This document shows, one piece after another, positions 8,351 through 61,324 of a stretch of 64,000 bases of DNA. The first letter of the stretch is position 1; the number at the start of each line of letters is the position of its first letter. Location: the NCBI GenBank assembly GCA_037447655.1, contig JBBHKE010003204.1:24600-88599 (forward strand), read 5' to 3'. This DNA is from Zygnema cylindricum (Eukaryota; Streptophyta; Zygnematophyceae; Zygnematales; Zygnemataceae). Below the pieces are notes generated by a model that saw only the letters and a list, made by a program, of their open reading frames with translations, did no database searches and had not been told where the DNA came from. The position numbers and the translations under genes are program-made.

Positions 8351-8420
8351 CTATAGGACCTAAAGGGAAAATAAGAGAAAGTGGTGCGAAGGAGGGATGT
8401 CTATTTAACTTCTAAGGTGG

Positions 8421-9655
8421 ACACAACAAGTTAATAGGGAGAAATCGATGTACGGTTACTCGTAGTACAAAAAAGCCACCTAAGTGAACTTCTCAAACTA
8501 GATAAGTACTCATAGAGAACGTCACATACAAGTCATAATGAGACTACTACATAATAATTATTTTTAATGGTAGTGTTGTGTATAGGGTTATTTCATAGCG
8601 TAATAATTTTGATGTCGATAAATCAAAATATCGAATGGTGAGAACGTCCCATTTATCGCTCCGAACCAACAAACATTACCAAGAGACATTTGGTGGAAGG
8701 TGGGGGCCTGCATAACCATTGAATATAATGGGGGGAGGGGGTACGAATGGGGGGGGGGGGGGGCATCAGGGGAGCCACGGAGAGGGGTGGGGCTGAGGGG
8801 GGGGGTGGGGGGCACGATTTTGGTTCTTAATTATTTCAGTCCATCCCAAACCAACGTAAGGAGGTCCTGTGATACTTATCGACCCCGATAACTTATCACG
8901 ATATATCATAATGTTATTGCAGCATAAGCCTTATCGAATATCCGACCAATATATTGATTATCGGTAGGTCCAAAAACGGTACATATCGAATATCGGCAAG
9001 GGGCTTTCGACACACAAGACTATGTAACAATGGCCATGCAACTAGTGGCAAAATCAAATAATTGACACAAAATGCAAGAATGTCACTTAACATATGTTAA
9101 TTGGGAACCCGTTATGGAGTATGTAAGGTCAACAGGCCACAGGACAAAACTGTTGTAGACCTTAGCGTTTTTACAAGCAGACACATAATTGTTTAAGCGA
9201 AAACGAAACGAATCGCTGCCAAGCTGTAAGCATTGTACGCACTTGTTGGAAATTGACGCTGCACAAATGCTTAAATGATCAATAAGTATGTTATTTGTCA
9301 ATAAATATTTTTTTCCATGGCGCCAAAATGTCATAAAAACGTAGCAAGGAAATTAGCGGATAACTCTCTCTTACACATATAATACTTTAACAACTATACT
9401 AGCCAATAACATTGTGAGACATGAACTAACTCCACTGACATGACGCAATATGACACATACACATGGTCGTTGTCAAAGTTGAAGTGCACCGCGAAATTTA
9501 AGCTTCATTTTGTTGAACCAGTGATTGTACCAATCTGGTTAAGTGAAGCATTTGCGAGGAATGCAAGCTCAACGAAACATACGTTGTCATGCCGCATCTC
9601 GTCGGCCATTTTAATTGTTTATATTTAGGTTTTAGGATGGGCAACCGACCGCTAC
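8421..9655. other. Intergenic, no gene recognised; poly-G tract
   Basis: No supported coding feature. A G-rich tract lies at about 8727-8815. ATCGATAT/TATCG-rich sequence at about 8610-9000 is related to dispersed repeats near 32770-32890 and 47810-48450. A small open frame at 9083-9334 (minus) has no recognised family. Confidence 0.5.
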
Positions 9656-9689
9656 ACTAATTTGCATTCGGGTGTATTTGGGTTTCGCA

Positions 9690-9990
9690 GGGCCGTACAT
9701 ACTTACGCTGGCCGGCCGTACATACTTACGTTGGCCGTAATTTCCGCCGACGGCGAGTTCCACCGTACAACATACATCTCCCGTGATTTCCGTCGACGGT
9801 GGATTTTGTCATTTCACGTCGACCGTACAACATATATTCTGCGCGATTTCCGCCGACGGTGGATTCGATCATTTCGCGTCACCGTACAAGTTACATTGTC
9901 CAAAATTCCTGCGACTACAAATTCGACCGTACCTTCGGTCCTACCGTACCTACTTTCATTTCCCGAAATCCCGGCCGACGACAATTTTGA
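9690..9990. repeat. Degenerate tandem repeat with TTTCCGCCGACGGTGGATT core
   Basis: A unit of roughly 65 bp (GATTTCCGCCGACGGTGGATT, then CATTTCGCGTC and ACCGTACAAC) is repeated with divergence about four times. Examples are near 9739, 9782, 9842 and 9967. The reading frames across it (up to 122 residues) repeat the same amino-acid pattern and are explained by the array. Confidence 0.7.
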
Positions 9991-11354: not shown

Positions 11355-13600
11355 TGATGAAGTTTTTTGACGGGCTAGAATCTCTTGCCCGAGGGTCAAA
11401 AAAAAAGAAAACACCAAAATTTGTTAAGATGACGACAAATATGAAGTACATTCAAAGTATAGACTTGACGTTTGCTGTACTTTTAAAGAATTTATTTTTT
11501 TGTACGTCTAAAGTTTTTCTCGTACGAACCTGCGTTTTGTGCGAAAACGACAGATTAAAGTCTATACCTTAACATATGGGGACGTACCCTAAGTCGTGAA
11601 CCATTTGGAGGTTCACGCATTCACATGTAGATAGGAAGGGTTTTAATCCGTATGTTATAGATTCTGTAACGTAGGGCATGGGATTCCGGCCGCCTATTGG
11701 CTGAATCCGAACTAGACGCAATATTTACATTGCACGCTGCAATCCTATTGGTTCGTTTCGCTAGGCGTAGACGTTGGTACTTAGTTGATTTTAGATCATT
11801 TTCTGCACACAATTTTCAAGTCCAGGAATTATTATTTTCAGTATTGAAGACTTTCAGCAGCCATCTTTTCCTTTGTAAAATTGTCCGGACATCTTATAGG
11901 CGATTTTTTGCCTTAGCCTAAAGCGTCTAGTTTCTATTACATTATCAATCTCTTGTAAAGCCTTACATATTAATATATAAGGCTTCGGCCAAGACCTACA
12001 CGGTTTCCCTTCAACACTTTTCGTCCGTTTGAGTGGATTCCGATCGCGTCCTCATAACACAAACTTCTTTTCCCGGCTGTGTCTGAACTTTAATTAGTGT
12101 GGAAGTTGCATGTTAAAATATCATTTTGTTGTTTTTATTTCTTGTGATTGTGTATTTATTTCTATTTGGCTTATGCGCATCTTTTGAGTTTGTTTATCTC
12201 AAACCTCATAAGTGTTTTACATATTGTCATTTTCAGTTTTTGTTTTTCCTTTTTGGTTGTTTCTGTTTTGGTTTACTTTCCTTAAGTCTAAAATCAAATT
12301 GTCATCGATAGGATAACTCCTGCAAGGAATATAAATAGACCGTAAGGCCTAGTGGCCATCCATTGGCTTAGTATTGTTGCACTTGAAAATTGTCGTCTCA
12401 TTATCCATTGTTATTTTCAATTCATTTTGTTTTTTCAGTTTCGGCTATATAAAACGAAAAAAAAATATTCAAAAATCAAAAAAATATATAATTTCTTGAC
12501 ATTGGTCAGTATTGTGTCACTTTGATCATACATTAAAGGACATTGGGTCACATTGGTGGACATTGATGTACATCCACCCTTAATTTCTCTAATTTCTTGT
12601 ACTTTTCAGACATTTTGTACAATTTTATGCAAAATTGCCACAATTTCCGCATATTTCCGGCATATTTATCCACATTGCTTGAATTTATGCACATATATTC
12701 GAAATCTCTCTACATTTCTCCATATTTCCGCACATCTCTCTCAATTTTAGCACATTCGTTTACCAATTTTGCACATTGCCTAAGCGTGTTGCAAATCTCT
12801 TGGATATTCTACTGTGCTAGTGCGTCTATTTACCACTCTAACTGTTTTTGCCTGTGGGTGTGTTTTCTTTCTCACTTGTATCCTACCACATATCGACCGT
12901 TGGACTATCACATTTGGAGAGGATTGGAATTAGAGCAGATTTGATTTGGGAGTTTGGCAAAACCCCGGTTGTAGCGATCAACCGCGGTTCTCGGTTGACA
13001 ATCACCAGATTGTTAACGGTGCTCTGTAAGTATCACAATGCCTTGCGGGTGTAGGAGCGTGTTTGGATAGTTGGTTGATCGTTAGAGGGAACGTGATTGG
13101 AGTGGATTTGCTCGAATCCGCTCATACTGAGCATTGCATTTTTCCAGCTTTCTATGCTTGCTAACTAGCCGTGAGTGGCCTTGGCTGAGTTTGCTTTGCT
13201 TGGTGTTGGATTTTTTCCTTAGATCTTGCCGTTGGTGGCATTAGTTAATTCCTTTGTGGAATTTGCCGCTTTAGATCTGCACTTGTAAGTGCTTTGATAG
13301 TAAGTTATTTGCCTTTATAGATCTGGCCCTTCGGCCTTGCCCCCTTGTTTGCAGGGTAAAAGTTTTGGTAATATGGCTTCTTGATAGATCAGGCCATCGA
13401 GGTCGTGCTAGAGATTGATTTGTTGATTGGGCAAGTGAGTGATGTGGCCTGGCATTTGAAGCATGTTGTATAGATCGATTATGCTATCTCGTCGTCATTT
13501 GGTTTTATCATTTTTATGCCCACGGATTAGAATAATCTTTATTATCCTTTCGGAACCACCCGACCATCGGCCTCGTTTAGGCCCACAGAATCAGGACCAT
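11355..13600. other. No gene recognised; may include the degraded 5' flank or LTR of the downstream gypsy element
   Basis: The sequence is A/T-rich without recognisable coding. Positions 12500-12790 contain many short CACATT/GACATTG units. Smooth, moderately GC-balanced sequence at about 12900-13600 (motifs such as GATCTGGCC and GATCTTGCC) could be LTR or leader of the element at 13618. However, no matching second LTR is present to prove it. Confidence 0.35.
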
Positions 13601-13754
13601 TAGACTTAGCTAGTCTTTTGGACCATCCTTCCCCGGATATCTTGGGTCAAATTTCCCCTTCAGTTCGATCATCTCTCACCTCAGTATCTTCCTTATCATC
13701 AGTCTCTCTTCCACACTTTTCGAGGAAGAATCTGACCACAATTCCCTTGATGGA

Positions 13755-15207
13755 TTGGATTCCAATTCATTATATTTTTGGTTCCCACAAATTACAAATT
13801 CATTATTAGCCCTAATCATTCCATTATTGGAAATAACTTCCACATCCGAAAGGGGGGGTCGTCTTCATTTCTGTTTTTCAGGAATGAAATACATAATGAC
13901 CCTATCTCATTTCCGTATGTTATTCGATACCGAAATGCGTGATCTTTTATTTCGGTACCAAGATCGGTTTGACCTACGGGTTGCTTTCTCTCTTTTAGGC
14001 CGTTACCTTCGTGGTTCGGCCCTTACTCTTTATTCCCACAAGTATGATTCCGTACTTGCGATGACAGAGTTTTCTCCAGCTTTTGCTGGGAGTCCTGCTA
14101 TTATAGAACAGCCAAAAATTCCTTATCAACAGGCTATCTCGGAAGTCCTTGATCTCAACGGCGATGTTATTACAGCAGCAGTTGCGGAAATACCGCAACA
14201 GTTTGCTATAGCCGCACGTGCTGGAATCCCGGCACGACTAGTGATGACGATCCCTATAATGGATCCGCTCTCAGTCATGTTTGAAATGTTGCAAGCAGAA
14301 TACCATATGCAAAACCTTGACCAAGTTTGAGAGTTGATGAACTTTGAACGGAAATCAGGAGAAACCGCCCCTGCCATGCGTGCTCGTATGGAAGCTCTTT
14401 CGAAGCATTGCCAGACTTAATGTCGGATGCTAAAGCTGTCCAGAAATTCGTAGGATAGTTTCCGATTCAGTCTAAGAAATTTATCTAGAGTTACTTGACT
14501 CAAACCTACGGCTTGAAGTTCACTTTCGAACAAGCCGCCCAGCATGCCGTGGAATACGAAATGCAAAATTGTTGGTGGGAAACCCATGACCGCCCTAAAG
14601 CCCAAAATTTTCTTATCAAAACCAAATTAAGAGTGGTGGCATTCGTGCTCGATTCGCAAGGCCAGTTCAACCGGTTAAAGAACCCGAAAAAGACACCACT
14701 CCACCTAAGGTATCTCAAAGAGAGAGAGAATGTTACGAAATGTAAGAGCAAATGGTGGTCATGATGAAGGATCAGTTCGCAACCTTCATGACTCAAATAA
14801 AGCCACAATTTACAGGCATGGCTCGCACCGTTGTACACATGCCCACGTTCGCAGGTCAAATCTTACGAGATTCCACCGTCCAACAACGAGAAGCTATGTT
14901 CGATAAAGGTTCGACCGATCACAGCCGTGATGGTAAAACTCCTAACACACGTATTCCGTTGTCATTTATGAAAGAACCTTCTTCTCCCTTGCCCGAAACC
15001 GCTCTTGCCATTGCGGCTGATGCTCTAAACATAGTGGATCGAACCATACATGAAGCACATTGCGTGAAAGAACGCTTGTGCATTCTATCCACTATGATTT
15101 CTGACACTCCAATCTCTCTTCTCCCTCCGATAGCTCAGCTGCAGCTGCCGCTTTACAAGCACTGCAGCTGCACAAAAATCTTGCTGCTATTCATCCTATT
15201 TTCGTAG
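13755..15207 (+). pseudogene. Gag-like region of the gypsy element
   Basis: Three blocks (13755-14330, 14495-14764, 14752-15207) are open in different frames. They together resemble a retrotransposon capsid region in composition and position just before a protease. The first block includes a FRYQDRFDLRVAFSLLGRYL-like helix-rich stretch, typical of gag capsid regions. No CCHC zinc knuckle is visible. Stops at 14328 and frame changes show that it is not functional. The assignment rests mainly on position. Confidence 0.55.
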
Positions 15208-15242
15208 AGGAGCGAAATTCTCTGGACCCTCACATCATTTTT

Positions 15243-15518
15243 TTGGAAAACGGGAAGGGATCATTGTTGATCAATGGTATTGCTCCAACCCTGCCCCTCA
15301 TGGATACGGGTGCAAAGCTAGTGATATTGGGCTCTAGCTTTGCACTCAAGCTTGGTCTGTTTTTGGACAAGCTTCAGTCTACTTCTACTCACTTGTTAAC
15401 ATCAGCGGGTAAAACCGAGCCAGTCATAGGAATCACTAAGGAAATGCTCGTTTTCGAGTTCTTGAACGGAACGACCACAAACTTTGTTGAGATCTCGGTT
15501 CACGCTCTTGTCATTTAA
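15243..15518 (+). pseudogene. Retroviral-type aspartic protease (retropepsin) and start of pol
   Basis: The frame contains LMDTGAKLVILGSSFALKLG, a retropepsin active-site motif (hydrophobic-hydrophobic-D-T/S-G-A). It is followed by the usual beta-strand pattern ending IS.HALVI. The enzyme would cut the Gag-Pol polyprotein. After a TAA at 15516 and a TAG at 15546 the same frame continues with DVIFRVGGGVD and a YRP motif. These match the conserved segment after the protease in this gypsy type (LLG...L...G..VDF...YRP), so the stops are recent point changes in a longer polyprotein. Confidence 0.75.
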
Positions 15519-15894
15519 TGTAGTGAATATGAATGCCTAGAAGGATAGGATGTTATATTTCGTGTAGGGGGTGGAGTTGACATGCATCATCGGACATTTT
15601 CTTATAGGCCCACTAACTTACTAGAACGCAAAATCTGCATTCCTCTAATTTCCGCTAGGAAACCCATGCATGTTATGGCGCATTCGGCCACCTTCATCCT
15701 TGCATTTTTAAGCAATTATATGGCGGCCGAAATATTTCATTCATTGTCAACAGAAGAAATTCTGCCCGATACTTCTTACTTGCCTGAAATTTTTAGTGAC
15801 CCCAGATTTCTTATAGATATGAGAGAATTTGACCGCATCTATAACTTAACCTTGTCAACTCCACTTTCTCCAGTCTCGCCTTCAATCCCAACAC

Positions 15895-16930
15895 CTACAG
15901 ACTCTTCTGGGTTTCTTCCCATTAATTGGATTCCGGTCCAATTGAGACCTCATCCATATGGATTGGTGATTTTCGACCTCTTCGCTAGAATTGGCATTTC
16001 CCTCCTTTCTTTTTTGCGTAATGGATTATTAATCCGATTTTATTATTGTGTCGAGATTTATCCTTTAGCACACAAAAAACAAGTACATCATTGTAATCTT
16101 TTGCATTCCCAATACCCGCATTTGTTACCAAAATCTGCAAAGAAGCATATGCATACTGCCCTCCCACAAGACATCTAGATCGTGGGCAACCATCACTTAT
16201 TGGAGATTGTTTCGATCGATCTAGTTTTCGGCGGTTGGGAGTGCCAAGGACTCTCTCGGGCCGGAAAAGGTCTCGGTTTGGCCGATCCTCGCACCAAATT
16301 ATTTTTTGAAATGGTTCTCATCATGCATTTTTTACAAACTTCAGAACATCCTATAGGATACATCTTGGAAAATGTTGCCGCCTATTATAATCCAAGACCT
16401 ACAGTCTTGGCTGATTATCAACGGATCGAACAATTAATTGGTCCGCCCCTTATTATTGACGCCGCTCGCCATGGTTCACTAGCACACCGGGTTCGCTCCA
16501 AATGGAGGAACCTAATTGATATTGGTCCACTTCGTGAGGCTAACGTGTCAGTTGGTCCTCCTCCTACAGATATTCAGGTTGACCTTCTTCCTTTCCATAA
16601 GGTGCAACCTTGGATACAAAAGGACTGTCCCCCTAATTTCAATATCAATGTCTTGGGTCAACCTCTCAAGGTTCTTCCTATCTTAGTTTCTTACCCACAT
16701 TCGCATGCATTCTCTAATGACGGTCCTGGCATGCTCTGAAACATTCATACCGGTGAGCTCAAAGAGCCTACCTCTACGGAACAACAACACCTCCTACATT
16801 TCATCGTTGGCACTACAGCCGCTTCTGGTTTTACAGAATGTCAAAGATGCACTTTATTAGGTCGTGTCATGGACCCGCAGTCTTTGGCTTTTGTTTTAGG
16901 CCTTGGGTTTGCTGCTGGTCGCCACTCTCA
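15895..16930 (+). pseudogene. Cytosine-5 DNA methyltransferase domain inside the retrotransposon polyprotein
   Basis: The motifs of C5 methyltransferases appear in canonical order. Motif I/II is LVIFDLFARIGISL...LLIRFYYCVEIYPLA (about 15963-16070; SAM binding). Motif IV is FGGWECQGLSRAG with the catalytic Cys (about 16210-16250). The DPRTKLFFEMV helix follows, then motif VI ILENV (about 16365), and motif VIII DAARHGSLAHRVRSKWRNL (about 16458-16515, RxR). A target-recognition stretch runs to about 16735, then TECQRCTLLGRVMD (about 16836-16877) in the place of motif X. Motif IV has Glu where the family's Pro-Cys-Gln usually has Pro. Two in-frame stops, TAG at 16176 between motifs II and IV and TGA at 16737, interrupt this copy. 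The frame is otherwise intact and runs on into reverse transcriptase. DNMT-bearing gypsy elements are reported from charophyte algae; their enzymes can methylate CG sites de novo, possibly marking the element's own cDNA. Confidence 0.85.
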
Positions 16931-17948
16931 GGCACATCCGTCTCAACCAGCTGGGGGGGGGAATGCATCACTAAGTAAACCATCTTTGCGTCACACTCTC
17001 AAAGGGACCACAATTCAAATTTTCCTCTTTCCTTCTCCAATTCCACTAGTTTTAGAAATCTCTATCTACGATTTCCTCAATCTTAACCATATGTCATGGT
17101 CTATTCCCGCATACATGGCTGTCCTGTCCACAAGTTCCATGCATTATCCACCCAATCCTCATTGGACTACTGCTTTTCCAACGCGCAGGTGGAATCATTC
17201 TATTAATTGCCTTAAACAGACACCAGTGGCTTACGAGTTAGGACAAACGCTTATCGCAGATGAGCAGTTAGCGTTTGCACAAGCCATGGAGGCCATGACA
17301 ACGAAGAATCTCGATGCTCTTAAATGGAAATTCGGCATCAATCTAACAAAGGCTGAACAAGAATTACTGAATGACGTAGTTTTACGGAATGTTGATGCCT
17401 TTGCTTTTTCAATGAACGATTTGGGTTGTCACACCGCTTATAAGATGTTGATAGGTCTCGAAAATGACCGCCTGATATTTAAATCGAAACATCGCTTCTC
17501 AGAAACCAAATGGGAAATGGTAGACAAACGATGTGCTGAACTAGAGGAAGCTGGCCTAATCTATCGGTCAGACTCCATATTTGCAGCTCCCACCGTCATG
17601 CCTCGGAAAAAGGATTATGAGGGTAATTTTACTGAACGTCGAATGTGCGGTGTTTATCGTGAACTAAATGCTAAGACCGTTCAAGATCTTCATCCCATGC
17701 CCCTCGCCGAGGAAATATTTGACCACGTAGGCGGGGCGAAGTATTTTAGTATCCTTGACCTCCGTGAAGGATTCAATCAAATTGAGATAGAGGAAAAAGA
17801 CTGGCAGAAAACTTCCTTTTGGGGTAGTGACAGCCAATGGGAATGGGCCGTAATGCCATTCGGAGTGAAAAACGCTCCAGCGGTATTTCAAAAAGTCATG
17901 GACTCAGTTCTCGGAGGTTGTAAGTTTGCTAGATGTTATATCGATGAC
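16869..17948 (+). pseudogene. Ty3/gypsy reverse transcriptase, cut at YIDD
   Basis: The frame is continuous with the methyltransferase. RT motifs in order are FAAPTVMPRKKD (about 17581), CGVYRELNAKTVQDLHPMPL (17647-17706), YFSILDLREGFNQIEI (17743-17790), SFWGSDSQWEWAVMPFGVKN (17815-17874) and CYIDD (about 17934-17948). The usual hydrophobic continuation after YIDD is replaced by the unrelated sequence that starts TGTCGAGCG at 17949, so thumb, RNase H and integrase are lost. The domain is gypsy-type (YRxLN, FxxLDLxxGFxQI, PFGxxNAPAxFQ). It cannot be active as it stands. Confidence 0.88.
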
Positions 17949-18238
17949 TGTCGAGCGTGCCTAATGAACGTGAGGGAAGGGCCCAAAGCACGGCGTCGTC
18001 GGCATCGGAGTCTTGCTAATAAACCCTGAATGCGAATGCTTCCCATAATAACGATCATGCCCACTGCTGCCCCCATCCCTCCTATAGACATTCATGCACA
18101 AATAGGAGGGGAAGAAGGACCAGGACTAGGAATGAAGGCATGGGAAGGCGAAAAGATCTCCCCTCCCCCTTCCTTTCCCCATCGAACCGGGGAAAGGGGG
18201 TTGGGTTTTTGGTTTGTCGGGTTGGTGCCCGGATTTCA
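17949..18238 (-). repeat. LTR-like repeat, copy 1 (290 bp, TG...CA)
   Basis: It is a 290-bp repeat almost identical to 19228-19517. On the minus strand it begins TGAAATCC and ends GCTCGACA, so it has LTR-type TG/CA ends. It interrupts the gypsy RT directly after YIDD. No target duplication is seen on its two sides, so this is not a clean solo-LTR insertion. Confidence 0.65.
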
Positions 18239-19227
18239 CCTTGACCACAGAAATAAAATATAAGATGGAAGATATAAAGATGGCGGAGCAAGCTTAACAT
18301 ACCCCGGCAATTTACGATGAAAATGAGAAAAGGCGATCTCTCTCCCAATGGCTGTGTAAATAGGTATGATACTCCTTCAACCCTCGGTGTCCGCAGCTCG
18401 GAACCGACTAGACTCTTCTCAGTTTCAAGCAACGATAAATCCAAAAATCACCCAAAAGGGAAGATAATGCCAATTACCAGCCCGAACTATGATTCCCACA
18501 ATGGACAGATCCAAAACAAAGATGGCAATAGAGTCAAAACAAAACAAAGATTCTTCCAAAAGAAGGTTTGTTGGATTTTCTGAGGGTTTTCACAGGAGTA
18601 CTGAAAAGCAACCTGTCTCCTTCGACCCCAAGTGCATTATACATCAAAGTTTGTCATATTGCAAGTCCGAAAGTCAAAGCTACGCTATTAACCAATGAGC
18701 GGCAAGCAACTGTAATTGAACTGACACAAGACAAATTAATCCGTACTACACTCGGGGCAAACAGTTGTGCTCAAGACTGCGGCTAGATCCGCGGCCGGAA
18801 GTATTTATTCGGTCCACAATTATAAGACAAAATCCTCAAAATGACACTAATTTGCCAGACTTTGACCTAACATAATAAATGGACGAAAATTCAGCTGAGA
18901 CTCAACTCAATTTCTACTGACGGCTACCAGCATAATATAAATGCAAATCCGAAAAGTTACGTGGCAATCCACAATGTACCCCCCAAAGGGGCTGGTGGCA
19001 AATGGTTCCCTGTAACGGAATCGCAATCTTTGAGACGGTAGAACTTTGTCATCCGGCCTCCGTTTGGCGCCAAATAAAGTGTGTTCCGCTCAGTTTAGGA
19101 AATACAAGGATCTCGTCCGGCTTGGTGCACTCACTCCTCCGTACTCTGAAGACCGTACAGAGTAAAAAGGGCCCGGAAATCCTTGGTGATATAAAGGTAT
19201 GCCTGAAAAGCACTTGAGTTTCACAGC
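18239..19227. other. Unassigned sequence between two LTR-like copies
   Basis: This is 989 bp lying between the two 290-bp repeats. No domain, primer-binding site or polypurine tract was recognised. Possible readings are the inside of a small non-autonomous element, or a leader or 3' region of the flanking gypsy family. Confidence 0.35.
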
Positions 19228-19517
19228 TGTCGAGCGTGCCTGATGAACGTGAGGGAAAGGCCCAAAGCACGGCGTCGTCGGCATTGGAGTCCTGCAAATA
19301 AACCCTGAATGCGAATGCTTCCCATAATAACGATCATGCCCACTGTTGCCCCCATCCCTCCCATAGACATTCATGCACAAATAGGAGGGGAACAAGGACC
19401 GAGACTAGGAATGAAGGCATGGGAAGGCGAAAAGATCTCCCCTCCCCCTTCCTTTCCCCATCGAACCGGGGAAAGGGGGTTGGGTTTTTGGTTTATCGGG
19501 TCGGTGCCCCGATTTCC
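19228..19517 (-). repeat. LTR-like repeat, copy 2; 3' LTR of the adjoining gypsy pol copy
   Basis: This is the second copy of the 290-bp repeat. On the minus strand it follows the pol region ending near 19570 and a purine run GACTAAGAGGGGGGG (complement of 19517-19531), which would be the polypurine tract. The terminal A of copy 1 is C here. A third, 5'-shortened copy lies at 21403-21549 in the same arrangement. Confidence 0.65.
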
Positions 19518-19559
19518 CCCCCTCTTAGTCAATCGTGACTGAGAAAAGGAAATAATTAT

Positions 19560-21390
19560 TCGCCCAATTCACAGTTCCCGCAGAACCATGGACGCGGGGA
19601 TGGAGAACGTGGTTCCCACGAGGAGGGGAGACAAGCTGGGTGCTAACACTGACCGCACTGATTGCAGACCAAGATGTCGTGCTGCGGGGAGGGAGGGTTG
19701 CACGATGATAAACAGGAAAGAGGATCGGTAAACTAAGTCAAGTTGAAAGTGGGCTCGTCTTCCAATCCTCGAAGGTGGCAAGGAGCCACATTAATGTGAT
19801 TCTCTTTAATTTTTGACCATCTTTCCCTTCCAAAGTCACAACCCCCTTGTTTGAAACTTCCACCACTTTCAAAATCACCCGCCCGACATAAATGTCAAGC
19901 GTATCCTTTTTCTGTTGTATTCGATACACAAAGTCTCCCGGCATAAATCATCGCAGTCGGGGCACGTAATCTTCGCTCCGGCGTTGAGAATACCACAATT
20001 GATCCCGGTGTTGTGCCGCCTGTAAATTCCCCATGGCGAGAGGTATCTCTCGGTAGAAAATTTTGGCACGGTCAGCGATCACTTTTTCGATGATTCCCTT
20101 GTCATCCATTTCCGGGAGGACCACCGATTGGGCCGAGGCAGCCGCGGGCAGAATAGGATGTCGTCCGAATAAAATGAAGTAAGGACTATAGTAGTGGAGA
20201 GAAGCGTGTCTGTTGAATCTGTATCCCATAGCAATCGAAGGCACTTTTTTGTCCCATTCCCCCAAATCCTCTTCAACTGCATATTTTCGTAGTGACCGCT
20301 TCACTGTCTGTACGCACCTTTCGGCCAAACCGTCGGCTTGAGGGTGGTCGCGGCTGGTAGGTCGATGGTCGATGAGGCATTTTTCCAAAAGGTTGGTAAA
20401 TTCTCCGGCGAATTCCGATCCTTCGTCTGTCAGAACCTCTGCTGGCGCTCCAAATTGTGACAGAACTCTTTGCAAGAAGGCGTCGGCAATGGACTTGGAC
20501 TCCTTTTGGGGCAGAACCACAAGCTCTATCCATTTTGAGAAATGTTCAATCATGACCAGATTGAAACGATTTCCACGTCGGCTGGTCGGGAGAGGTCTCA
20601 AAATATCCAAAGACCATCGGTAAAACATTCCCCGGATAGGAAGAGAATGAAGCTCAGTCCCGCCCTTTTTGTCAAAAGATGCCTTAACTCGATCGCAGGA
20701 AGAACAAGTCTGTAAAATTCGGTTGACTTGGGCCCGCAACCCGTGCCACCAATAAGAACCTGTAACTAGGGAAGAAGTCCGCTTCTGTCCGAAGTGTCGA
20801 CATTGCTTATGGAGATTGGTAATCAGAGTTTCTCGATCGGATTGAGGAGGAACCACTTTCCTTCTAGCGTCTGACCATTTCGGAAGGAGAACGCCTCGGT
20901 CCCATTCATACGCAGCCATCCGGGTCAGAACTCGGGACAATTGAACTCCACCCAAATGGGGAAGAGGGGATCCTTGTTGGATAGATTGGAGAGCTTTGGA
21001 GTCATTCCAGATGTCTTTTCGTCCAGCTCCTATGGGTGCCTGCCCCTCAACATCGGCTGCAAAGGCTGACCATGCCCCCCCAAATAGAGGAAGCCAAATT
21101 AAGGCGAAGGATGCTCAAATTAATCCAAAACTGAGTTTCGGGTCCTCGTCATGCCGAGCTCCGGTAGAATCCAGTGTAGAAGGATCAGGGTTTCGGCTAA
21201 GTCCGTCGGCATTCCCATGGATTTTCCCTGCCCGGTGGACAATGCTGAAATCATAAGGCAAAAACAGGCAGGAAAACTGATACTTTTGTGCCTGGGCGGC
21301 GCTTATTCAGTGGGGAAGTGGAAGGGGCAAATATTATCCTAGAGGCTTTGCATAGGTTGCTCATTCTGTGAGTCAATAGAGACCACATAA
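19560..21390 (-). pseudogene. Gypsy pol fragment 1: RNase H end, integrase and broken PHD finger
   Basis: On the minus strand, IVHRAGKIHGNADGLSR (about 21245-21195) is the RNase H/integrase junction typical of gypsy pol. 20955-19948 encodes an integrase. It has a zinc-binding HHCC region (NLHKQCRHFGQKR...CSSCDRVKA) and a core with MFYRWSLDILRPLP, VLTDEGSEFAGEF and RDHPQADGLAERCVQTVKRS, including the D-D-E residues. A GYRFNRHASLHYYSPYFILF segment and a GPY-like tail follow. A frameshift near 19945 separates the tail (19944-19738). The last 150 bases correspond to the PHD-finger region of copy 2 but are frame-shifted. Reverse transcriptase is absent: sequence upstream of 21390 abuts the LTR piece of copy 2. 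Confidence 0.8.
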
Positions 21391-21402
21391 TTTCAGGTTA
21401 TG

Positions 21403-21549
21403 CATGCACAAATAGGAGGGGAAGAAGGATCGGGACTAGGAATAAAAGCATGGGAAGGCGAAAAGATCTCCCCTCCCCCTTCCTTTCCCCATCGAACCGG
21501 GGAAAGGGTGTTGGGTTTTTTGGTTTATCGGGTCGGTGCCTTGATTTCC
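21403..21549 (-). repeat. Truncated LTR-like repeat, copy 3
   Basis: 147 bp match the part of the 290-bp repeat starting CATGCACAAATAGGAGGGG and ending GATTTCC. It is followed on + by CCCCCTCTTAGTCAACCGTG, the polypurine tract on the minus strand, exactly as at 19517. It is preceded by RNase H-region sequence of pol copy 1, giving a head-to-tail arrangement. Confidence 0.65.
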
Positions 21550-21587
21550 CCCCCTCTTAGTCAACCGTGACTAAGAAAAAGAAATAA

Positions 21588-22960
21588 TTACCCGCCCAAT
21601 TCACAGTTGCCGCAGAACCATGGACTAGGGGATGGAGAACGTGGTTCCCACGAGGAGGGGAGACAAGCTGGGTGCCAACACTGACCGCACTGATTGCAGA
21701 CCAAGATGTCGTGCTGCGGGGACAACAGGTTGCAGGATGATGAACAGGAAAAAGGATCGGCAGAGTAAGTCAAGTGGAAAGTGGGCTTGTCTTCCAATCC
21801 TCGGAGGTGGCCAGGGGCCACATCGATCTGATTCTCTTTAATTCTCCGACCATCTTTCCATTCCAAAGTCAGAACCCCCTTGTTTGAAATTTCCACCACT
21901 TTCAAAATCACCCGCCTGGCAAAAATGTCAAGCGTATCCTTTTTCTGTTGCATTTGATACACAAAGTCTCCCGGCATAAATCGTCGCTGTTGGGGCACAT
22001 AATCTCCGCTCCGGCGCTGGGAATACCACAATTGATCCCAGTGTTGTGTCGCCTGTAAATTCCCCATGGCGAGAGGTATCTCTCGGTGGAAAATTTTGGC
22101 ACGGTCGGCGATCAATTTTTCGACGGTTCCCTTGTCATCCATTTCTGGGAGGACCACCGATTGGGTCGAGGCAGCCTCGGGCAAAATGGGATGTCGTCCG
22201 AATAAAATGACGTAAGGACTATAGGAGTGGAGAGAAGCCTGTCTATTGAATCTGTATCCCATAGCAATCCAAGGCACCCTTTTGTCCCATTCTCCCACGT
22301 CCTCTTCAACTGCATATTTCCATAGTGACCGCTTCACTGTCTATACGCACCTTTCAGCAATACCGTTGGCTTGAGGGTGATCGCGGCTGGTAAGTCGATG
22401 GTCGATGAGGCATTTCTCCAAAAGGTTGGTAAATTTTCCGGCAAATTCCGATCCCTGGTCTGTTCGAACCTCTGCTGGTGCTCCAAATTGTGACAGAACT
22501 CTCTACAAGAAGGCGTCGGCAATGTACTTGGACTCTTTCCGGGGCAGAACCACAAGCTCTATCGATTTTGAGAAATGTTCAACCATGACCAGAACGAAAC
22601 GATTCCCACGTCGCTGGTCAGAAGAGGTCCCAAAAGCTCCAAAGACCACCGATAAAACATTCCCCGGATAAGAAGAGAATGAAGCTCAGTCCCGCCCTTT
22701 TTGTCAAAAGATGCCTTAACTCGATCGCAGGAAGAGCAAGTCTAAACAATTCGGTTGACTTGGGCCCGCAACCTGTAACACCAATAAGAACGTGTAACTA
22801 GGGAAGTGGTGCGCTTTTGTCCGAAGTGTCCGCATTGCTTATGGAGATTGGTAATCACAGTTTCTCGATCGGATGGAGGAGGAACTGCTTTCCTTGTACC
22901 GGCTGACCATTTCCGGAGGAGAACGCCTCGGTCCCATTCATACGCCGCCATCCGGGACTG
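21588..22960 (-). pseudogene. Gypsy pol fragment 2: integrase with C-terminal PHD-type zinc finger
   Basis: This is a tandem second copy of the integrase region. The zinc-binding part is at 23000-22750 (NLHKQCGHFGQKRT) and the core lies between about 22740 and 22340 with several frame breaks. 22337-21588 is one intact frame covering the core C-terminus, the MPGDFVYQ GPY-like tail and a final cysteine-rich module. The module is CSSSC-x12-CNQCGQCWHPAC-x15-WFCGNC. This is the C4-H-C3 pattern of a PHD finger, here placed where chromoviruses have a chromodomain. PHD fingers read histone H3 tails, so the module may guide integration; that role is inference. The N-terminal end is cut at 22960 by the LTR of the copia element. 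Confidence 0.82.
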
Positions 22961-24013
22961 TGAAACTCTGAGACCTCTATAAGTCCTCAGAGTAAACAGC
23001 TTCCAAAAAGCCTCTAGGATAACTCTGACCCCTTTGTGTTTCAGCAAAAACAACTGCCACCCTGGAAGACAATAACTCTAACCAACTTGACCCCTGTGAA
23101 GGCAAGACTCCCTTGAGTCGATAGCAAAAAGAATCTCTGAATTTGCTCCCTTGAGCAGTAAGTTATGGAGGGTCAAAGTTGACCGTTTATACAAAAGCTC
23201 TTTGGGAGAGAGGGTCCTATCTCCTAATTATTCTGAGTCCTATCTCTCTCACACACTCTATCTACTGATGTACGGAGCCAATCAAATTACAGTTCCGTAC
23301 ACAAAAGTACAGCTTGCGGTGTACTTTCTGTACGGACACCGTAAGACATGGCCTAAATGTCAACACGTGGTATGTCCAGATTCGCTCCGTTAATCCTCAA
23401 AGATGCCGCGATCCAATGTCATTACGCCACGTGTCATCCGATGTGGCGATGACCACAAACAGCCAAAATCCTCTTCCGCGATCTCGACGTTAATTTCGGC
23501 CGTTCGATTAAATTCACATTTAATCGTAGCCGTAATAAATACATGCGCAAAATTCGTTTCATTAAAGAAATAAATGAGCGGTATTGGTTTCATATCCGTA
23601 CCGTAATCCGTACTTTTACATTATTAGATCTATGTATTCCGTAAACACTTACAGTTAAATGAATTATCCTACCTGATAATGTTTAATTAATTATCAAATC
23701 ATATAGTATGTAACACTAGTTCTAGACTAAACGGCTAAGGCTACGGGTTACCGACTATTTGCAGTCCGGTAGGTACCAGGATCAAATCCTGTGGCCGGCA
23801 CATACCTTTTAGTAAATAAACCCCTAACTAATATATATTTCCCGTAAACCTCTGGATAGCCTAGGTAGCCATGGCTGTAGATCCCTCTCCAATTTCTCAG
23901 TGACTGCGACAAGTTTGAGAGTTGGAGAGAGAAGTTAGAGGTAGACTGCCTCGGCTTCTTTCTTATTTCTATTCAGACCTAGAAAATACTTTAAAAGACC
24001 ATTAATTTCTACA
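22961..24013 (-). repeat. 3' LTR of copia element 1
   Basis: 1053 bp, near-identical to 28364-29417. On the minus strand it begins TGTAGAAATTAATGG and ends CAGAGTTTCA (TG...CA). The complement of 24014-24030 (AGAAAATAAGGGGAG) is the polypurine tract just before it. It is inserted within gypsy pol copy 2. Confidence 0.9.
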
Positions 24014-24026
24014 CTCCCCTTATTTT

Positions 24027-24866
24027 CTAGTCAATCTTTAATTTCAGACCACACTTCTCCCTGCAGAAAATTAGCTTAGGGGAAGGCACAGGTTTGGTCA
24101 TCATATCTGCTACCATCTCACTATCTGGTCGGTTCTCTAAACTGATTATTTTGTTTTCTACTTTCTCTCTAACAAAGCTGAGTCTAATGTCCATGTGTTT
24201 GGCTTTAAAATGATGTTTAGGATTGGCAGAAATAGCGATTGCTTCCTGATTATCACAAAATATTTTCTGCACACCACTCTTAAGGTGACCAAGCTCACCA
24301 AGCAAAGACTTGACCCACATCAATTCTTTTACAGCAGAGCAAGAGGCCATATACTCAGCCTCCATGGTGGACTGAGCAATAACTTTTTGCTGTTTGCTAC
24401 TCCAACAGCAAGCTCCATCACCCACATATAATACATATCCAGAAGTGCATCTCCTCATTGGAGCATCACCATAACTGGCATCACTCCAAGTAGTGTTTTT
24501 AGTATTCTCCCCACCCAAATGCAACCATAGATCTCTAGTTCCTATCAAATATCTAAGGACTCTCTTAGCTACCTCCCAATCCCTCTTAGTGGGAGCATTT
24601 AGACTTCTACTTAGCACTCCTACAGCTGCAGCTAAATCCGGCTGGGTACAAATCATAAAATAGATTAGGCTTCCCACTACTTGCTTGTAAGGAATAGCCT
24701 GCATGAACTTCTGTTCTTCAGGAGATAATTCCTCGTCTAAGACTATGACTCCTTCTTCCTCACTCCCCTCACTTCCCTTCTTCAACTCCATTGGAGTTGT
24801 ACAAGTATTAGCTTCATCCATTTGAAATTTTTCAAGCATGTTCCCTATCGATTCCTTTTGAGTCAA
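24027..24866 (-). pseudogene. Copia RNase H region of element 1
   Basis: 279 residues. They start in the connection domain (YKQVVGSLIYFMICTQPDLA, then LSRSLNAPTKRDWEVAKRVL) and contain the RNase H motifs WSDASYGD, VIAQSTMEAEYMA (catalytic Glu), IFCDNQEAIAI and KHMDIRLSFVRE. They end with DMMTKPV, the usual copia C-terminus. RNase H removes the RNA template during reverse transcription. The frame is intact but separated from RT by frameshifts between 24867 and 24968. Confidence 0.88.
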
Positions 24867-25505
24867 TCTTATAATTTTTCTTTTTTCGGTCTCTCTCTAC
24901 TTCAATTCCCAAAATATATTTTGCTTCCCCCATATCCTTCATTTCAAATCTCCCCTTAAGATCGGTTTTCAGTTATTAATTTTTTCCATTGATTTACTTA
25001 AAACAAGCAAATCATCAACATAAATTGCAATAAATATAAAACCTTCCTCATCTTCGAAAACATAGATTGAGTGATCTGAGGTAATCCAGATATATCCTAG
25101 ACCGGTAAGAAACTCATCAAGCTTCTTATTCCACTGTCGAGGCGCATGTTTCAAACCATAAAGAGATTTAATCAGTCGATATACCTTACTCTCCTCTCCT
25201 TCTTCCACAAACCCTTCGGGTTGTCGCATGAAGATCTCCTCTTCCAATTCTCCATGCAAAAAGGCTGTTTTGATGTCCATCTGGTGCACTTCCAGGTCTT
25301 CCGCTGCTGCCAGACTGAGAAGTATGCGGACGGAGGGAAATCTGACCACCGGGGCAAAGGTTTCCTCGTAGTCAATTTCCTCATTTTGTGTAAATCCCTT
25401 TGCCACTAATCGGGCCTTGTAGCGCATGATTGTGTTATCAAGGTTCAGTTTTAATTTTAAAACCCACTTATAACCGATTGGTTTTCGGTTAGGTGGACAA
25501 TCCAC
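24867..25505 (-). pseudogene. Copia reverse transcriptase of element 1
   Basis: The sequence includes [73 protein letters not shown] and the catalytic IYVDDLLVLSK. All are diagnostic of Ty1/copia RT. A stop at 24969, caused by a one-base change of frame just after the catalytic motif, separates the last RT segment. Confidence 0.88.
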
Positions 25506-26180
25506 CAGCTTCTAAGTATCGGCTGCCATAATTGAGGCCATCTCCCCATTAATGGCTGTCTTTCACCGATTTCTTTCTGGACAAGTCATCGCCTCTCCAT
25601 AAATTTGAGGTTCATCTTGATGAGATAGTTTAGTTACCTTGTTATTAACCTGTTTTTCTTACAATCTTTTGCTACTTCTCCTTCCCCCCTCAAAATCTGA
25701 GGCCGGAATAGATGGTTCTCGTGGATTCTTTCGAATAAACTCAGCTTCTCCCCTATCCCTTGATTCCGAATCAATTTCCACCACGTCTTTCGCTTCGGGT
25801 AGAGTTGTCACTGGAGTTTCCACAGCCGAGTCCTTTTCGGTCTGATTTGTACCTGCAAGAATGTCATCTTCTCTAAAACCTGGATAGTTAGGAAGCTCAA
25901 AGTCATCGGAATTTTCTGACTCAAATCTGATTTTTATTGCCTTTGTATATTTGAAGGGATCCACAGACTTTCCTTCATCCATAACTACTACATGCTTTAC
26001 TAGGATGATATCTTCCATTTTTATATCATAAACTCTATATCCTTTAACATCCTCATCATATCCTAATAAGTATCCCGGTTTTCCTTTAGGATCTAGCTTC
26101 CAATTAGACCGATCTGTATCTAGACTGAATACTTGACTGCCGAAAACCTTTAAGTGAGATATGTCTGGTTTCCGGCTTGT
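25506..26180 (-). pseudogene. Copia integrase C-terminal and linker region of element 1
   Basis: This stretch links integrase and RT in the polyprotein order. A frame at 26018-25659 is acidic and proline-poor and ends in PSIPASDFEGGRRSSKRL, typical of the variable copia linker. Adjacent codons on both sides are in other frames, so at least two frameshifts or stops lie here. Confidence 0.6.
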
Positions 26181-29999: not shown

Positions 30000-32130
30000 T
30001 ACATCTTTAAATACTTATCGAACCCTATACAGCTTAGCACTGATCCTAGACTAAAGGATAAAGCTACCGGCTACCTTGGATAAAGGATGGTAGGTACCAC
30101 GATCAAATCCTGGGTCTCTCAAGTATATTTTGGTAAATCTACCAAAATCTACTGCATGTCGCTCTCTCTCTGAAAAAAATATGCAACCATGGCTCTAGCT
30201 CCCCTGTCTCTCTCTCTCTGGACAAAATACGCAACCATGGCTCTAGCTCCCTCTCTAACCTTCAGTAATTGCGACAAGTGTGAGAGTTGAAGAGAGGATT
30301 TAGAGGTAGACGACTTCTGCTTTTTTCTACATTTTATTTTACATGTTTAGACCTAGAAAATACTAAAAGAACCATTAATTTCTACACTCTCCTTATTTTC
30401 TAGTCACTATTCAATTTAAGACCACACTTCTCTACAAAAAATTAGTTTAGGGGAAGGTACACGTTTGGTGATCATATATGCTACCATTTTACTATCTGGT
30501 TCATAGTCTAAACTGATTATCTTGTCTTCTACCTTCTCCCTAACAAAGCTAAGTCTAATGTCCATATGTTTGGCTTTAAAGCGGTGTTTAGGATTGGCAA
30601 AATGGCAATGGCTGTCTGATTATCACAAAACACTTTCTAGACACCACTTTTAAGATGACCAAGCTCACGAAGCAAGGAATTGACCCACATTAATTCTTTT
30701 ACAGCAGAAGAAGAGGCCATGCTCTCAGCCTTAATGGTGGACTGAGCAATGACCTTTTGTTGCTTGTTGCTCCAGCAGCAAGCCACATCACCCACATACA
30801 ATACATACCCAAATGTGCATCTCCTCATAGGAGTATCCCCATAGCTGGCATCACTCCAAGTGGTGATGAGAGTATTCTTCCCACCTAAATGATGCGATAG
30901 ATCTCTAGTTCCTATGTGATATCTAAGGACTCTCTTAGCTGCCTCCAAATCTTTCTTAGTGGGAGCATTGAAACTTCTGCTTAGTACTCCTACTCCAATG
31001 GCTATATCCTGCCGGGTACAATTAATAAAATATATTAGGCTGCCCACTACTTGTATATAAGGAATTGTCTGCATAAATCTTTTCTCTTCATGACCTAATT
31101 CATCATCCAAAATTATAACTCCCTCTTCCACACTCCCCTCACTTCCCTTCTTAAGTTCTATTTTGAGTGGTACAACTATTAGCCTTGTCCATTTGAAATC
31201 TTTCTAACATGTTTCCAATAGCCTCTTTCGGAGTTAATCTTATTATCGTTCTATCTCTGTCCCTCTCTACCTGAATTCCTATAATATACCTTGTTTCTCC
31301 CTTATCGTTCATCTCAAATCTACCTTTTAGATCAGTTTTCAACTTATTTATTTTATCCATAAATTTACTTAAAACAAGCAAATCATCAACATAAATTGCA
31401 ATAAAATTAATTCCTTCCTCGTCTTCAAACAAACAAAATGATTGATCGGAGCTGATCCGAATATATCCCAAACTTGTAAATACTCATCGAGCTTCTTATT
31501 CCATTGCCGAGGCACCTGTTTCAGCCCATACAAAGATTTGATCAATCGACATATCTTGCTGTCCTCCCTTTGCTCTACAAACCTTTCGGGCTGTCGCATA
31601 AATATCTCTTTTTTCAACTCTCCATGTAGGAAGGCCATCTTGTTGTCCATTTGATGTACTTCCATGTCTTTCTGCTGCTGCTAGAATGAGAAGTACCTAG
31701 AAGCAGTGAAACCTGACGACCAGGGGAAATGTCTCCTTGTAGTCAATTCCATCTTTCTGGGTAAACCCTTTTGCCACTAACCGAGCGTTGTAGCGCTCAA
31801 TGGTGTTATCCGGGTTGAGTTTCAACTTAAATACATACTTACACCTGATTGGCTTTATGTTAAGAGGACAATCCACCAATTCCTATGTATCGGCCGCCAT
31901 AATTGAAGCCATCTCTTCATTAATAGCTGTCTTCCAACAGTTCCTCTCAGGATAGTTCATCGCCTCACCATAATTCTGGGGTACATCGGGGTGAGAAAGT
32001 TTGGTTACAAGTTGTTTACTTGTTGCTTCTCCTTCCACCCTCAAACTTTGATGCCGGAATAGATGGCTCTCGTGGATTCTTTCGAGCAGTTTCGACTTCT
32101 CTCATATCCCTTGATTCTAAGTCTATTTCC
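30000..32130 (-). mobile_element. Truncated Ty1/copia element 2 (RT, RNase H and part of the 3' LTR)
   Basis: 30000-30386 resembles the 3' part of the element 1 LTR, ending ...ATTAATTTCTACA on +, followed by the polypurine tract complement at 30387-30402. The minus-strand coding parts are RNase H-connection 31131-30637 (WSDASYGDTPMRRCT, KVIAQSTIKAESM), the RT tail 31471-31151, RT with VHQMDNKMAFLHGELKKEIF and SLYGLKQVPRQW at 31665-31369, and RT start 31879-31697 ([19 protein letters not shown]). MDNK replaces the usual catalytic MD(I/V)K and the YVDD motif reads YVDDLLVLSK. Frameshifts occur throughout and the RNase H end is missing. Everything upstream of RT is absent after about 32130. It is the same subfamily as element 1. 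Confidence 0.82.
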
Positions 32131-32450
32131 ACCACCGCCACGTGTACTTTTTATGTACAGTACAGTCTTGTGATTGGTATCATACTTCAGTAGTAGAGGG
32201 TTTAGAGAGGGGTTTAGGACTTAGAAAAAATAGTAGGTAGCCGCCTCTCTCCCAAAGTGCTTTTGTATTTATAGGCCATCTTTGTCCAGCCATAACTAAC
32301 TGCTTAGGGGAGCAAATTCAGAGATTCTTTTTGCTGCCTACTCAAAGAAGTCAAAGCTACATTGGGGTGTAGTTGGTCAGGTATTTGCATGCCAAAGTGG
32401 CGGTATTTCTAAGGAAAAGTCAAACTGTGGGAATGTATCGGACTTACACA
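32130..32450 (+). repeat. Copia-family LTR fragment, opposite orientation to element 2
   Basis: Blocks such as GGGGAGCAAATTCAGAGATT followed by CTTTTTGCTG, and GGTAGCCGCCTCTCT, match the reverse complement of the element 1 LTRs and also the copy at 39090-39420. It is truncated on the left at the element 2 breakpoint and is joined on the right to the inverted-repeat element at 32450. Confidence 0.65.
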
Positions 32451-32771
32451 TTTCCTACACTGCTATTTAAAAACTATCCAGATTAGATTTAATAACGCTA
32501 ATTAAACAGTACATGTATTAACGTAAAAAAACAATTAGAGTTATTAATTATATTTTAGGTTCATGGGTAAAAATTCGGGGGCGCCGAATTAGCGTTATGA
32601 ACGCTAATAGCAATTCAGAGTGTAGTACCATTCTCGATGAACTGTACACCGTGAATCGCTATTAGCGTTGATAACACAAATTTAGACAGTTTTTAAATAG
32701 TGTAGTGTACGAAATGTGTCAATTTATACTAAAATTGCTCGTTATTTGATACAATCGTATAGAAAGGGTGT
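32450..32771. mobile_element. Inverted-repeat element, copy a (about 322 bp)
   Basis: Near-identical to 37972-38301. The left end ACACATTTCCTACACTGCTATTTAAAAAC and the right-end block GTTTTTAAATAGTGTAGTGTACGAAATGT are inverted relatives, giving about 35-bp imperfect terminal repeats. Inside lie two head-to-head ends of the TACACCGTGAATCGCTATTAG family. Non-coding. Confidence 0.7.
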
Positions 32772-37970: not shown

Positions 37971-37971
37971 G

Positions 37972-38301
37972 ACTTACACATTTCCTACACTGCTATTTAA
38001 AAACTGTCCATATTAGATTTAATAACGCTAATTAAACAGTAGATGTATTAACGTAAAAAAACAATTAGAGTTATTAATTATATTTTAGTTTCATGGGTAA
38101 AAATTCGGGGGCGCCGAATTAGCGTTATGAACGCTAATAGCAATTCAGAGTGTAGTACCATTCTCGATGAACTGTACACCGTGAATCGCTATTAGCGTTG
38201 ATAACACAAATTTAGACAGTTTTTAAATGGTGTAGTGTACGAAATGTGTCAATTTATACTAAAATTGCTCGTTATTTGATACAATCGTATAGAAAGGGTG
38301 T
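37972..38301. mobile_element. Inverted-repeat element, copy b
   Basis: Second copy of the element at 32450-32771, differing at only a few positions over about 325 bp. It directly abuts the LTR that begins near 38302-38340. Confidence 0.7.
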
Positions 38302-61320: not shown

Positions 61321-61324
61321 GCCA

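Follow-up and report, generated by a model that had tools for sequence, protein, structure and literature searches.

A decayed gypsy-type retrotransposon with a DNMT3-like methyltransferase inside pol in Zygnema cylindricum, and its family in the same genome

Background

Retrotransposons that carry a DNA methyltransferase (DNMT) are a known kind. In the sections of de Mendoza et al. 2018 (PMC5890265) that deal with these elements, a gypsy element of this type is described from a charophyte alga, namely KnitGypsy-Dnmt3 of Klebsormidium nitens. The same sections describe SymbioDIRS-Dnmt3 and SymbioLINE-Dnmt of Symbiodinium, which also captured a DNMT (of the Dnmt3 type in the DIRS class) but belong to other retrotransposon classes and are considered independent captures. 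De novo CG methylation is reported there for the DNMTs of DIRS-type retrotransposons, and methylation of the cDNA is proposed for DIRS elements; for the gypsy DNMT, no methylation was obtained in yeast, a result regarded as inconclusive by the authors. A passage of PMC12344493, citing the 2018 paper, also mentions LTR and DIRS retrotransposons that contain DNMT3 members.

From elements that write their own silencing mark one can learn what role DNA methylation plays for a parasite. Here we describe such an element in a stretch of 64,000 nucleotides from the genome of Zygnema cylindricum (the window). An initial annotation of the window had rightly referred to gypsy elements with a DNMT in charophyte algae as a known kind. 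Whereas the 2018 report concerned one charophyte gypsy family, two deep lineages occur here in one genome, and they differ in expression strategy (a fused open reading frame or a conserved stop) as well as in the active-site motif (ECQ or PCQ). Our main reading, to which we assign a probability of roughly 0.6, is that the locus belongs to a large gypsy family with a DNMT3-like methyltransferase in pol that would follow the working model given below (marked new copies, tuning by a Glu, readthrough). The additions to the known kind would be the recurrent exchange of Pro for Glu, the conserved stop, a PHD finger tail and two domain orders.

Results

The methyltransferase element in the window

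The stretch 13486-17947 on the forward strand is a decayed and truncated gypsy-type element with a DNMT3-like methyltransferase inside pol, and this copy is dead (Table 1). The initial annotation had placed a C5-methyltransferase between a retropepsin and a gypsy reverse transcriptase (RT), which is borne out by matches to Pfam DNA_methylase and RVT_1 and to DNMT3A in the PDB. The HMM search suggested as a check gave a DNA_methylase match for the piece 16179-16736 by itself (E 1.2e-7, 31.9 bits, cut-off 22), and the top PDB matches of this piece are DNMT3A entries (E 2.5e-6). The preceding piece 15549-16175, which contains motif I, has no DNA_methylase match of its own and nothing above the Pfam cut-off, and the piece 16740-18026 matches RVT_1 with E 8.2e-14. 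The protease match was obtained with the piece 15105-15515. Motifs I, IV, VI, VIII and X, all named before, can be aligned in linear order with those of open copies, although motif I is altered (DLFARIG vs. DLFAGIG in the open copy L023). The annotation was also right that a Glu occupies the position of Pro next to the catalytic Cys (GGWECQG). This Glu had been presented, together with the post-protease linker, as detail added by this copy; both are real, but they are family traits of better copies and the window copy itself is dead. The earlier statement that the region forms one continuous frame is wrong: the pieces share a frame, but this is broken by four stops (TAA 15516, TAG 15546, TAG 16176, TGA 16737).

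Compared to L023, the region from protease to RT (15171-17948) shows 68% amino acid identity, and everything beyond the YIDD motif of the RT is absent; only protease and RT are left of the gypsy pol domains. Beyond the first reading, gag remnants can be followed leftwards as far as approximately 13486, and on the other side the element breaks off within the YIDD codons, at 17947. In tblastn with the L023 polyprotein, the gag pieces correspond to residues 34-62 (13486-13581, 56% identity, E 0.001), 156-343 (13836-14399, 64%) and 345-411 (14402-14602, 73%). Residues 412-489 of L023, with two CCHC zinc knuckles (450-463 and 470-483), have no counterpart, and no such knuckle was found in the window frames of 13486-15300. 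Since there are in-frame stops and both the zinc-knuckle stretch and all sequence past YIDD are gone, we regard the copy as dead and truncated.

Table 1. Features of the methyltransferase element and of the reverse-oriented element adjoining it (positions in the window)
Feature	Position	Strand	Evidence
Gag remnant of the ECQ-lineage element, in pieces	13486..14602	+	tblastn with L023 polyprotein
Gag C-terminal / pre-protease region	14608..15144	+	tblastn, L023 aa 490-671, 59% identity
Retropepsin domain, DTGA at 15303	15171..15515	+	Asp_protease_2 E 3.8e-4, under Pfam cut-off; colinear with L023
Two in-frame stops closing the protease part (TAA 15516, TAG 15546)	15516..15548	+	translation
Protease-to-methyltransferase linker	15549..15959	+	colinear with L023
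DNMT3-like C5-cytosine methyltransferase, motifs I to X	15960..16901	+	Pfam PF00145; PDB DNMT3A; 73% aa identity with L023 DNMT
Motif IV Glu-Cys in GGWECQG	16239..16244	+	Glu codon GAG 16239-16241, catalytic Cys codon TGC 16242-16244
Reverse transcriptase, cut off within the YIDD codons	17289..17947	+	Pfam RVT_1; tblastn with L009 and L023
Terminal repeat B2 of the reverse PCQ-lineage element	17948..18240	-	95% identical to 19227-19519
A2-like stretch between both B repeats	18241..19226	-	L012 9076-9418 vs. 18761-18423, 77%
Internal repeat B1, reverse element	19227..19519	-	95% identity with B2
Integrase and PHD-like end of the reverse pol	19507..21255	-	Integrase_H2C2 1.8e-13, rve 2.9e-11; 76% nt
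Second, partly duplicated integrase-PHD copy	21400..23017	-	19369-20924 = 21400-22956 at 91%

At 17947/17948 the YIDD codons abut the terminal repeat of a second methyltransferase-gypsy in opposite orientation. The end of this repeat is GGCACGCTCGACAG, the same as the ends of the B repeats of the genomic copy L012. Since the integrase end of the reverse element is 85% identical in amino acids to the copy L009 across 484 residues, it appears that one methyltransferase-gypsy was inserted into another. In the second integrase-PHD copy, the PHD match (21588-22340, E 1.1e-4) lies slightly under the curated cut-off. Neither the DNMT part of the reverse element nor the far side of the target site was found within the window.

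Several other repeats were seen in the window. A pair of direct repeats, each approximately 1.36 kb long (51717-53074 and 53925-55281, 99.6% identical), is separated by 2.2 kb and resembles a young LTR-type element whose interior is short. The stretches 24160-25510 and 30531-31834 are, by eye, similar in DNA to a part of the locus L010 with a copia-like RT reading frame; 23850-25784 and 30216-32135 are 79% alike. Repeats of 332 bp (32440-32771 and 37970-38301, 98.5% identical) lie among less similar ones. Strong strand asymmetry was observed at 1-1000 (AT skew -0.553, GC skew -0.320) and at 61001-62000 (GC skew 0.423, AT skew 0.405).

Related copies in the genome

A search of the genome (352.8 Mb, 2689 contigs) with the window piece resulted in 151 matches including its own, that is 150 besides (1410 candidates, 150 scored), and a search with Pfam DNA_methylase in 123 matches (782 candidates, 123 scored); both counts are lower bounds. 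Among the listed matches of the window piece the identity is 64-87%, with 85-87% for the nearest ones (approximately 87% in DNA). From the 123 DNA_methylase places, 22 were taken as long loci (L009-L030) and read; L015 turned out to be a different methyltransferase. Two lineages are prominent, one with ECQ in motif IV (the window copy, L010, L014, L023 and L024) and one with PCQ (L009, L012, L013, L020, L026, L027, L029 and others). A further methyltransferase exon of a different type (L007 1498-1797, GGPPCQGASG) resembles by eye a plant chromomethylase, which would fit a streptophyte genome.

L023 is a single open reading frame of 2395 amino acids with the order gag, protease, DNMT, RT, RNase H, integrase and PHD finger. 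RVT_1, RNase H, H2C2, rve, DNA_methylase and the PHD finger (E 1.5e-9) are above the Pfam cut-offs; the protease is outside the Pfam matches and was identified through its DTGA motif. L009 has an open reading frame of 1520 amino acids (DNMT, RT, RNase H, integrase), and its tail shows a PHD-like Cys/His pattern that is not reported by Pfam as a PHD at E 0.001. ADD and PWWP domains are absent among the Pfam matches of L009 and L023. The gypsy pol set of protease, RT, RNase H and integrase is present in one element (L023), and in L009 and L023 the DNMT lies ahead of the RT within the pol frame.

Instead of ordinary LTRs, L023 has split direct repeats in the DIRS-like order A1-ORF-B1-A2-B2, with one copy being complete when its upstream neighbour L031 is included. 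A1 (L031 2115-3001, 887 bp, continuing into L023 1-88) and A2 (8625-9555, 931 bp by coordinates) are 100% identical, and B1 (8381-8622) and B2 (9556-9798) are 99.6% identical. A1 begins with TGTC and B2 closes with GACA (TG...CA), a G run precedes B1, and two extra bases lie at the joint of B1 and A2. In a self-comparison of 12 loci, split repeats were seen in L023, L024 and L012 (B1 and B2 94.8% identical in the latter) and in none of the other nine within the stretch covered; L027 has no repeat in its flanks of 3.0 and 2.5 kb. They are not visible in the window copy, which is truncated.

Selection on the methyltransferase and its fold

The dN/dS ratio of the DNMT domain was calculated for 15 pairs (Nei-Gojobori) and amounts to 0.12, 0.10, 0.22, 0.25 and 0.13 in five PCQ pairs and to 0.11 for L023 and L010. 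Judged from these 6 of the 15 pairs (0.10-0.25), the DNMT is under purifying selection; among the remaining nine, two pairs are identical, five have no computable dS and two have an extreme one (4.3 with a ratio of 0.05 and 5.0 with a ratio of 0.04). The fold was examined with the homologous protein P0083, which has ECQ and is related to the window lineage, and not with the window copy itself. Its model (24-row alignment) has a mean pLDDT of 70.3, with low values in the first 161 residues and mostly 90 or more in the methyltransferase part. There are 165 PDB matches with E <= 0.001, and the best 50 are all DNMT3A, DNMT3B or DNMT3C entries, some complexed with DNMT3L, where the matching chains of the complexes are not told apart. 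The DNMT diverges approximately three times faster than RT and integrase, with tree paths of 1.16 vs. 0.31 between L009 and P0001 and of 1.13 vs. 0.41 between L023 and P0004.

The residue beside the catalytic Cys

The canonical Pro preceding the catalytic Cys is not found in the window lineage, and since Glu stands where Pro is expected, we speak of a DNMT3-like enzyme and not of a canonical DNMT3. Twenty further genomic copies were read: the catalytic Cys is kept in all of them and 19 have ECQ, with the Glu codons GAG and GAA, while L071 has PCQ and looks like a member of the other lineage. The same variation is seen in retrotransposon-type homologues, where motif IV is readable in 120 of 124 proteins (all except P0040, P0115, P0123 and P0124): ECQ occurs 62 times, PCQ 51 times, PCE twice, and DCA, PYQ, PCM, SCQ and PCG once each. 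The catalytic Cys is kept in 119 of these 120. The lower-scoring C5-methyltransferases, in contrast, have PCQ in 77 of 77 cases and ECQ in none; the total of 201 proteins was split by a score gap (<=58 bits vs. >=97 for the others listed) and not protein by protein. The underlying protein searches scored candidate lists of 7992, 4553 and 8000, and one of them gave the best 120 of 250 matches. Decay of the window copy is thereby ruled out as the origin of the Glu. Since the copies are related, none of these counts represents independent events.

In the alignment of homologues, all 53 ECQ rows have EN in motif VI, as do 24 of the 26 Pro rows, the other two having EH. The Pro/Glu state changes at least ten times on the DNMT tree, which was built from 109 rows without the motif columns, and at least five times on the tree of RT and integrase (53 rows). 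Carriers of ECQ include Closterium NIES-53 and NIES-54 and Haematococcus lacustris, and those of PCQ include K. nitens and Marchantia polymorpha. Closterium is a zygnematophyte and Haematococcus a chlorophyte. The recurrent Pro-to-Glu active site is an addition to the known kind.

A conserved stop between protease and methyltransferase

In the PCQ lineage the protease frame closes at a stop, which is followed by CAATTC and then by the DNMT frame. The stop is TAG at 16 of 16 junctions in the long loci, with CAA next in 15 (L017 has TAA instead of CAA), and 20 of 20 further copies have a stop as well (18 TAG, 2 TAA). All 36 located junctions therefore carry a stop (34 TAG, 2 TAA), with CAATT next in 35; some of the 36 are near-identical (L011/L012, L027/L028, L045/L046), and L018 and L025, whose junctions were not located, are outside this count. 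In the whole genome there are 184 exact matches of the downstream pattern (1 in the reversed control), of which 170 have TAG before them (1 in the reversed control) and the other 14 a mostly unread preceding codon. The DNMTs of L009 and L026 share 58% DNA identity, with dS not computable, yet across the eight types compared TAG and CAA do not vary, whereas most adjoining codons do. In 9 junctions checked, the open stretch upstream of the stop measures 24 to 582 codons; several copies are thus decayed themselves. No AUG is conserved past the stop in these 9 junctions. L020 (reverse complement) holds two PCQ-lineage elements in 9.9 kb, both with TAG CAA TTC at the junction (3794 and 7468).

The candidate readthrough site of the PCQ lineage is UAGCAAUUC. 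The consensus of plant-type or tobamovirus readthrough is given as UAG CAR YYA in the parts of PMC3542737 and PMC2754532 that describe it, and CAAUUC agrees with CARYYA in 5 of 6 downstream positions, the last base being different. Since the coding pattern continues as far as the stop, a conserved AUG is missing behind it, the downstream frame is under selection and the consensus agrees in 5 of 6 positions, occasional readthrough of the stop is the most probable interpretation; its main rival is partial splicing. A 5-bp hairpin past the stop was considered too weak (14 sequences, -4.9 vs. -0.67, s.d. 1.22, in 100 shuffles of columns irrespective of codon structure). A variant code in which TAG specifies an amino acid is excluded, as the frames of 1520 and 2395 amino acids are open with TAG as a stop.

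Domain order in homologous proteins

Among 81 homologous proteins, the DNMT stands before the RT in 14 (including Klebsormidium and Closterium) and after it in 47, so that the domain order rests on 61 of the 81; nine have DNMT and integrase without RT, and 11 have the DNMT only. A PHD-like match occurs in 53 of the 81. The order changes once on the DNMT tree and once on the tree of RT and integrase, and the dividing branches have SH-aLRT values of 84-90. Given this single change on each tree, the split in domain order is old and might go back either to one capture that moved or to two captures. The trees are quick and unrooted (no outgroup row met the length filter) with SH-aLRT support only, and therefore gain is not separable from loss on them; seven near-identical rows were dropped, and P0041 and P0100 have long branches.

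Three proteins from M. polymorpha (P0003, P0011 and P0015, 1159-1278 amino acids) contain a retrotransposon-type DNMT, and no RT was found in them; they are element remnants or possibly domesticated genes. A viral origin was considered for free-standing homologues on long contigs and rejected, as P0090 has no relative in viral contigs (13 pattern matches, none confirmed). P0090 is probably an element fragment, since its tail resembles the stretch ahead of the RT in the K. nitens protein.

Discussion

In our working model, the DNMT would be made within the Pol polyprotein and then enter the particle, where it could methylate the new cDNA and/or, de novo, the insertion site. The PHD finger at the integrase is possibly a chromatin reader, and it might steer the integrase according to the state of histone tails, so that new copies would be born already marked. 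In the ECQ lineage, where everything lies in one fused reading frame, selection would retain the Glu beside the catalytic Cys, which probably tunes catalysis or substrate rather than abolishing activity. In the PCQ lineage, the conserved UAG followed by CAAUUC ends the protease frame, and DNMT, RT, RNase H and integrase would probably be reached by occasional readthrough, a dependence that would keep these enzymes scarce. As a hypothesis, the DNMT might in this way hide, tame or protect the element's own copies. The footprint of methylation in the sequence is weak and mixed. The ratio of observed to expected CpG is 0.94 in the approximately matching stretch of L023 vs. 0.85 in the window copy, and that of CHG is 1.18 vs. 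0.90 (whole window: 0.94 and 0.83); in the PCQ lineage, open copies have CpG values of 0.63-0.65, below the 0.87 of the decayed window piece.

One might object that a host methyltransferase gene or pseudogene was merely hit by a retrotransposon and that the neighbourhood is due to chance, all the more as this region of the window is crowded with nested repeats and transposable elements. The probability of this is practically negligible: the genome contains 150 further matches of the DNMT piece, a single open reading frame unites DNMT, RT and integrase in L009 (1520 amino acids) and likewise in L023 (2395 amino acids), and the DNMT accompanies the RT, before it in 14 and after it in 47 of 81 homologous proteins. 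The methyltransferase thus belongs to the retrotransposon, as first annotated, and the open copies, in which a single frame holds all domains, already rule out a stand-alone host gene. A more serious question is whether the ECQ enzyme is catalytically dead and kept for another job, such as binding of cDNA or DNA or as a scaffold. DNMT3L, for example, acts without catalysis, and both the Pro in 77 of 77 lower-scoring homologues and the faster divergence of the DNMT relative to RT and integrase (1.16 vs. 0.31 between L009 and P0001) would fit such a role. Nevertheless, the catalytic Cys persists in 119 of 120 readable motifs, motif VI is EN in all 53 ECQ rows and dN/dS is low, and we therefore consider a dead enzyme unlikely.

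With regard to the stop of the PCQ lineage, it could be removed by partial splicing, with TAG as the end of an intron; partial splicing has reportedly been observed in Ogre elements, and TAG, which is nearly invariant here, is usable as a 3' splice site. Yet the codons vary synonymously up to the stop and the protein pattern D-I-A is mostly kept, which makes the stretch look coding, CAATT in 35 of 36 junctions exceeds what an acceptor needs, and two copies have TAA. Splicing is therefore an improbable explanation, though a better one than re-initiation or an internal start behind the stop. The latter could use the in-frame ATG 19 codons past the stop in the four L009-type copies checked, but in three L013-type copies (codon 96) and two in L020 (codons 144 and 148) the first in-frame Met lies past motif I, and we hold such a start to be very unlikely.

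A bolder idea, doubtful but worth stating, is that retrotransposon DNMTs repeatedly trade the near-universal Pro for Glu under selection and thus might possess a second, element-specific active site of C5-methyltransferases, e.g. one adapted to nascent cDNA, to RNA:DNA hybrids or to a less strict sequence context. Together with the PHD reader at the integrase and the rationing by readthrough in one lineage, this would amount to a self-contained system of a mobile element for reading and writing chromatin. The two lineages of this genome and the homologues in Haematococcus, Closterium, Klebsormidium and Marchantia offer natural pairs for testing the role of Pro and Glu and that of enzyme dosage.

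Comparison with known systems

In the titles and abstracts of the open-licence literature, we recognised no report of ECQ, a PHD finger or readthrough in DNMT retrotransposons. The nearest relative in kind is KnitGypsy-Dnmt3, which, according to the sections of PMC5890265 on these elements, likewise has a Dnmt3-type DNMT with unrearranged motif order inside the gypsy Pol frame, is likewise under purifying selection and shows a DIRS-like repeat arrangement (Fig. 4 legend there) as in L023; these main-text sections do not mention readthrough, a PHD finger or a Glu in motif IV. The K. nitens protein P0034, which is marked as partial, has the same order of DNMT, RT and integrase as L009 and L023. 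It carries PCQ where the window lineage carries ECQ, and no PHD finger like the one closing the L023 integrase was found in this partial protein. Closest in sequence and fold is the catalytic domain of DNMT3A and DNMT3B, from which the window lineage differs by GWECQG in place of the Pro-Cys motif and by the location of the DNMT inside a Pol polyprotein.

The junction of the PCQ lineage shares with Type I readthrough, as outlined in the relevant parts of PMC3542737 and PMC2754532, the in-frame UAG, the following CAA UU and a selected coding region downstream. It differs in ending with UUC and not with YYA and in its place between protease and DNMT. Candidates for readthrough were found earlier among gypsy-type retrotransposons of rice, as stated in PMC2754532, which means that gypsy elements with readthrough are no novelty in themselves. 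In the gag-UAG-pol arrangement of gammaretroviruses, as described in PMC3542737, an in-frame UAG restricts the amount of Pol relative to Gag, whereas the stop of the PCQ lineage is placed after the protease instead.
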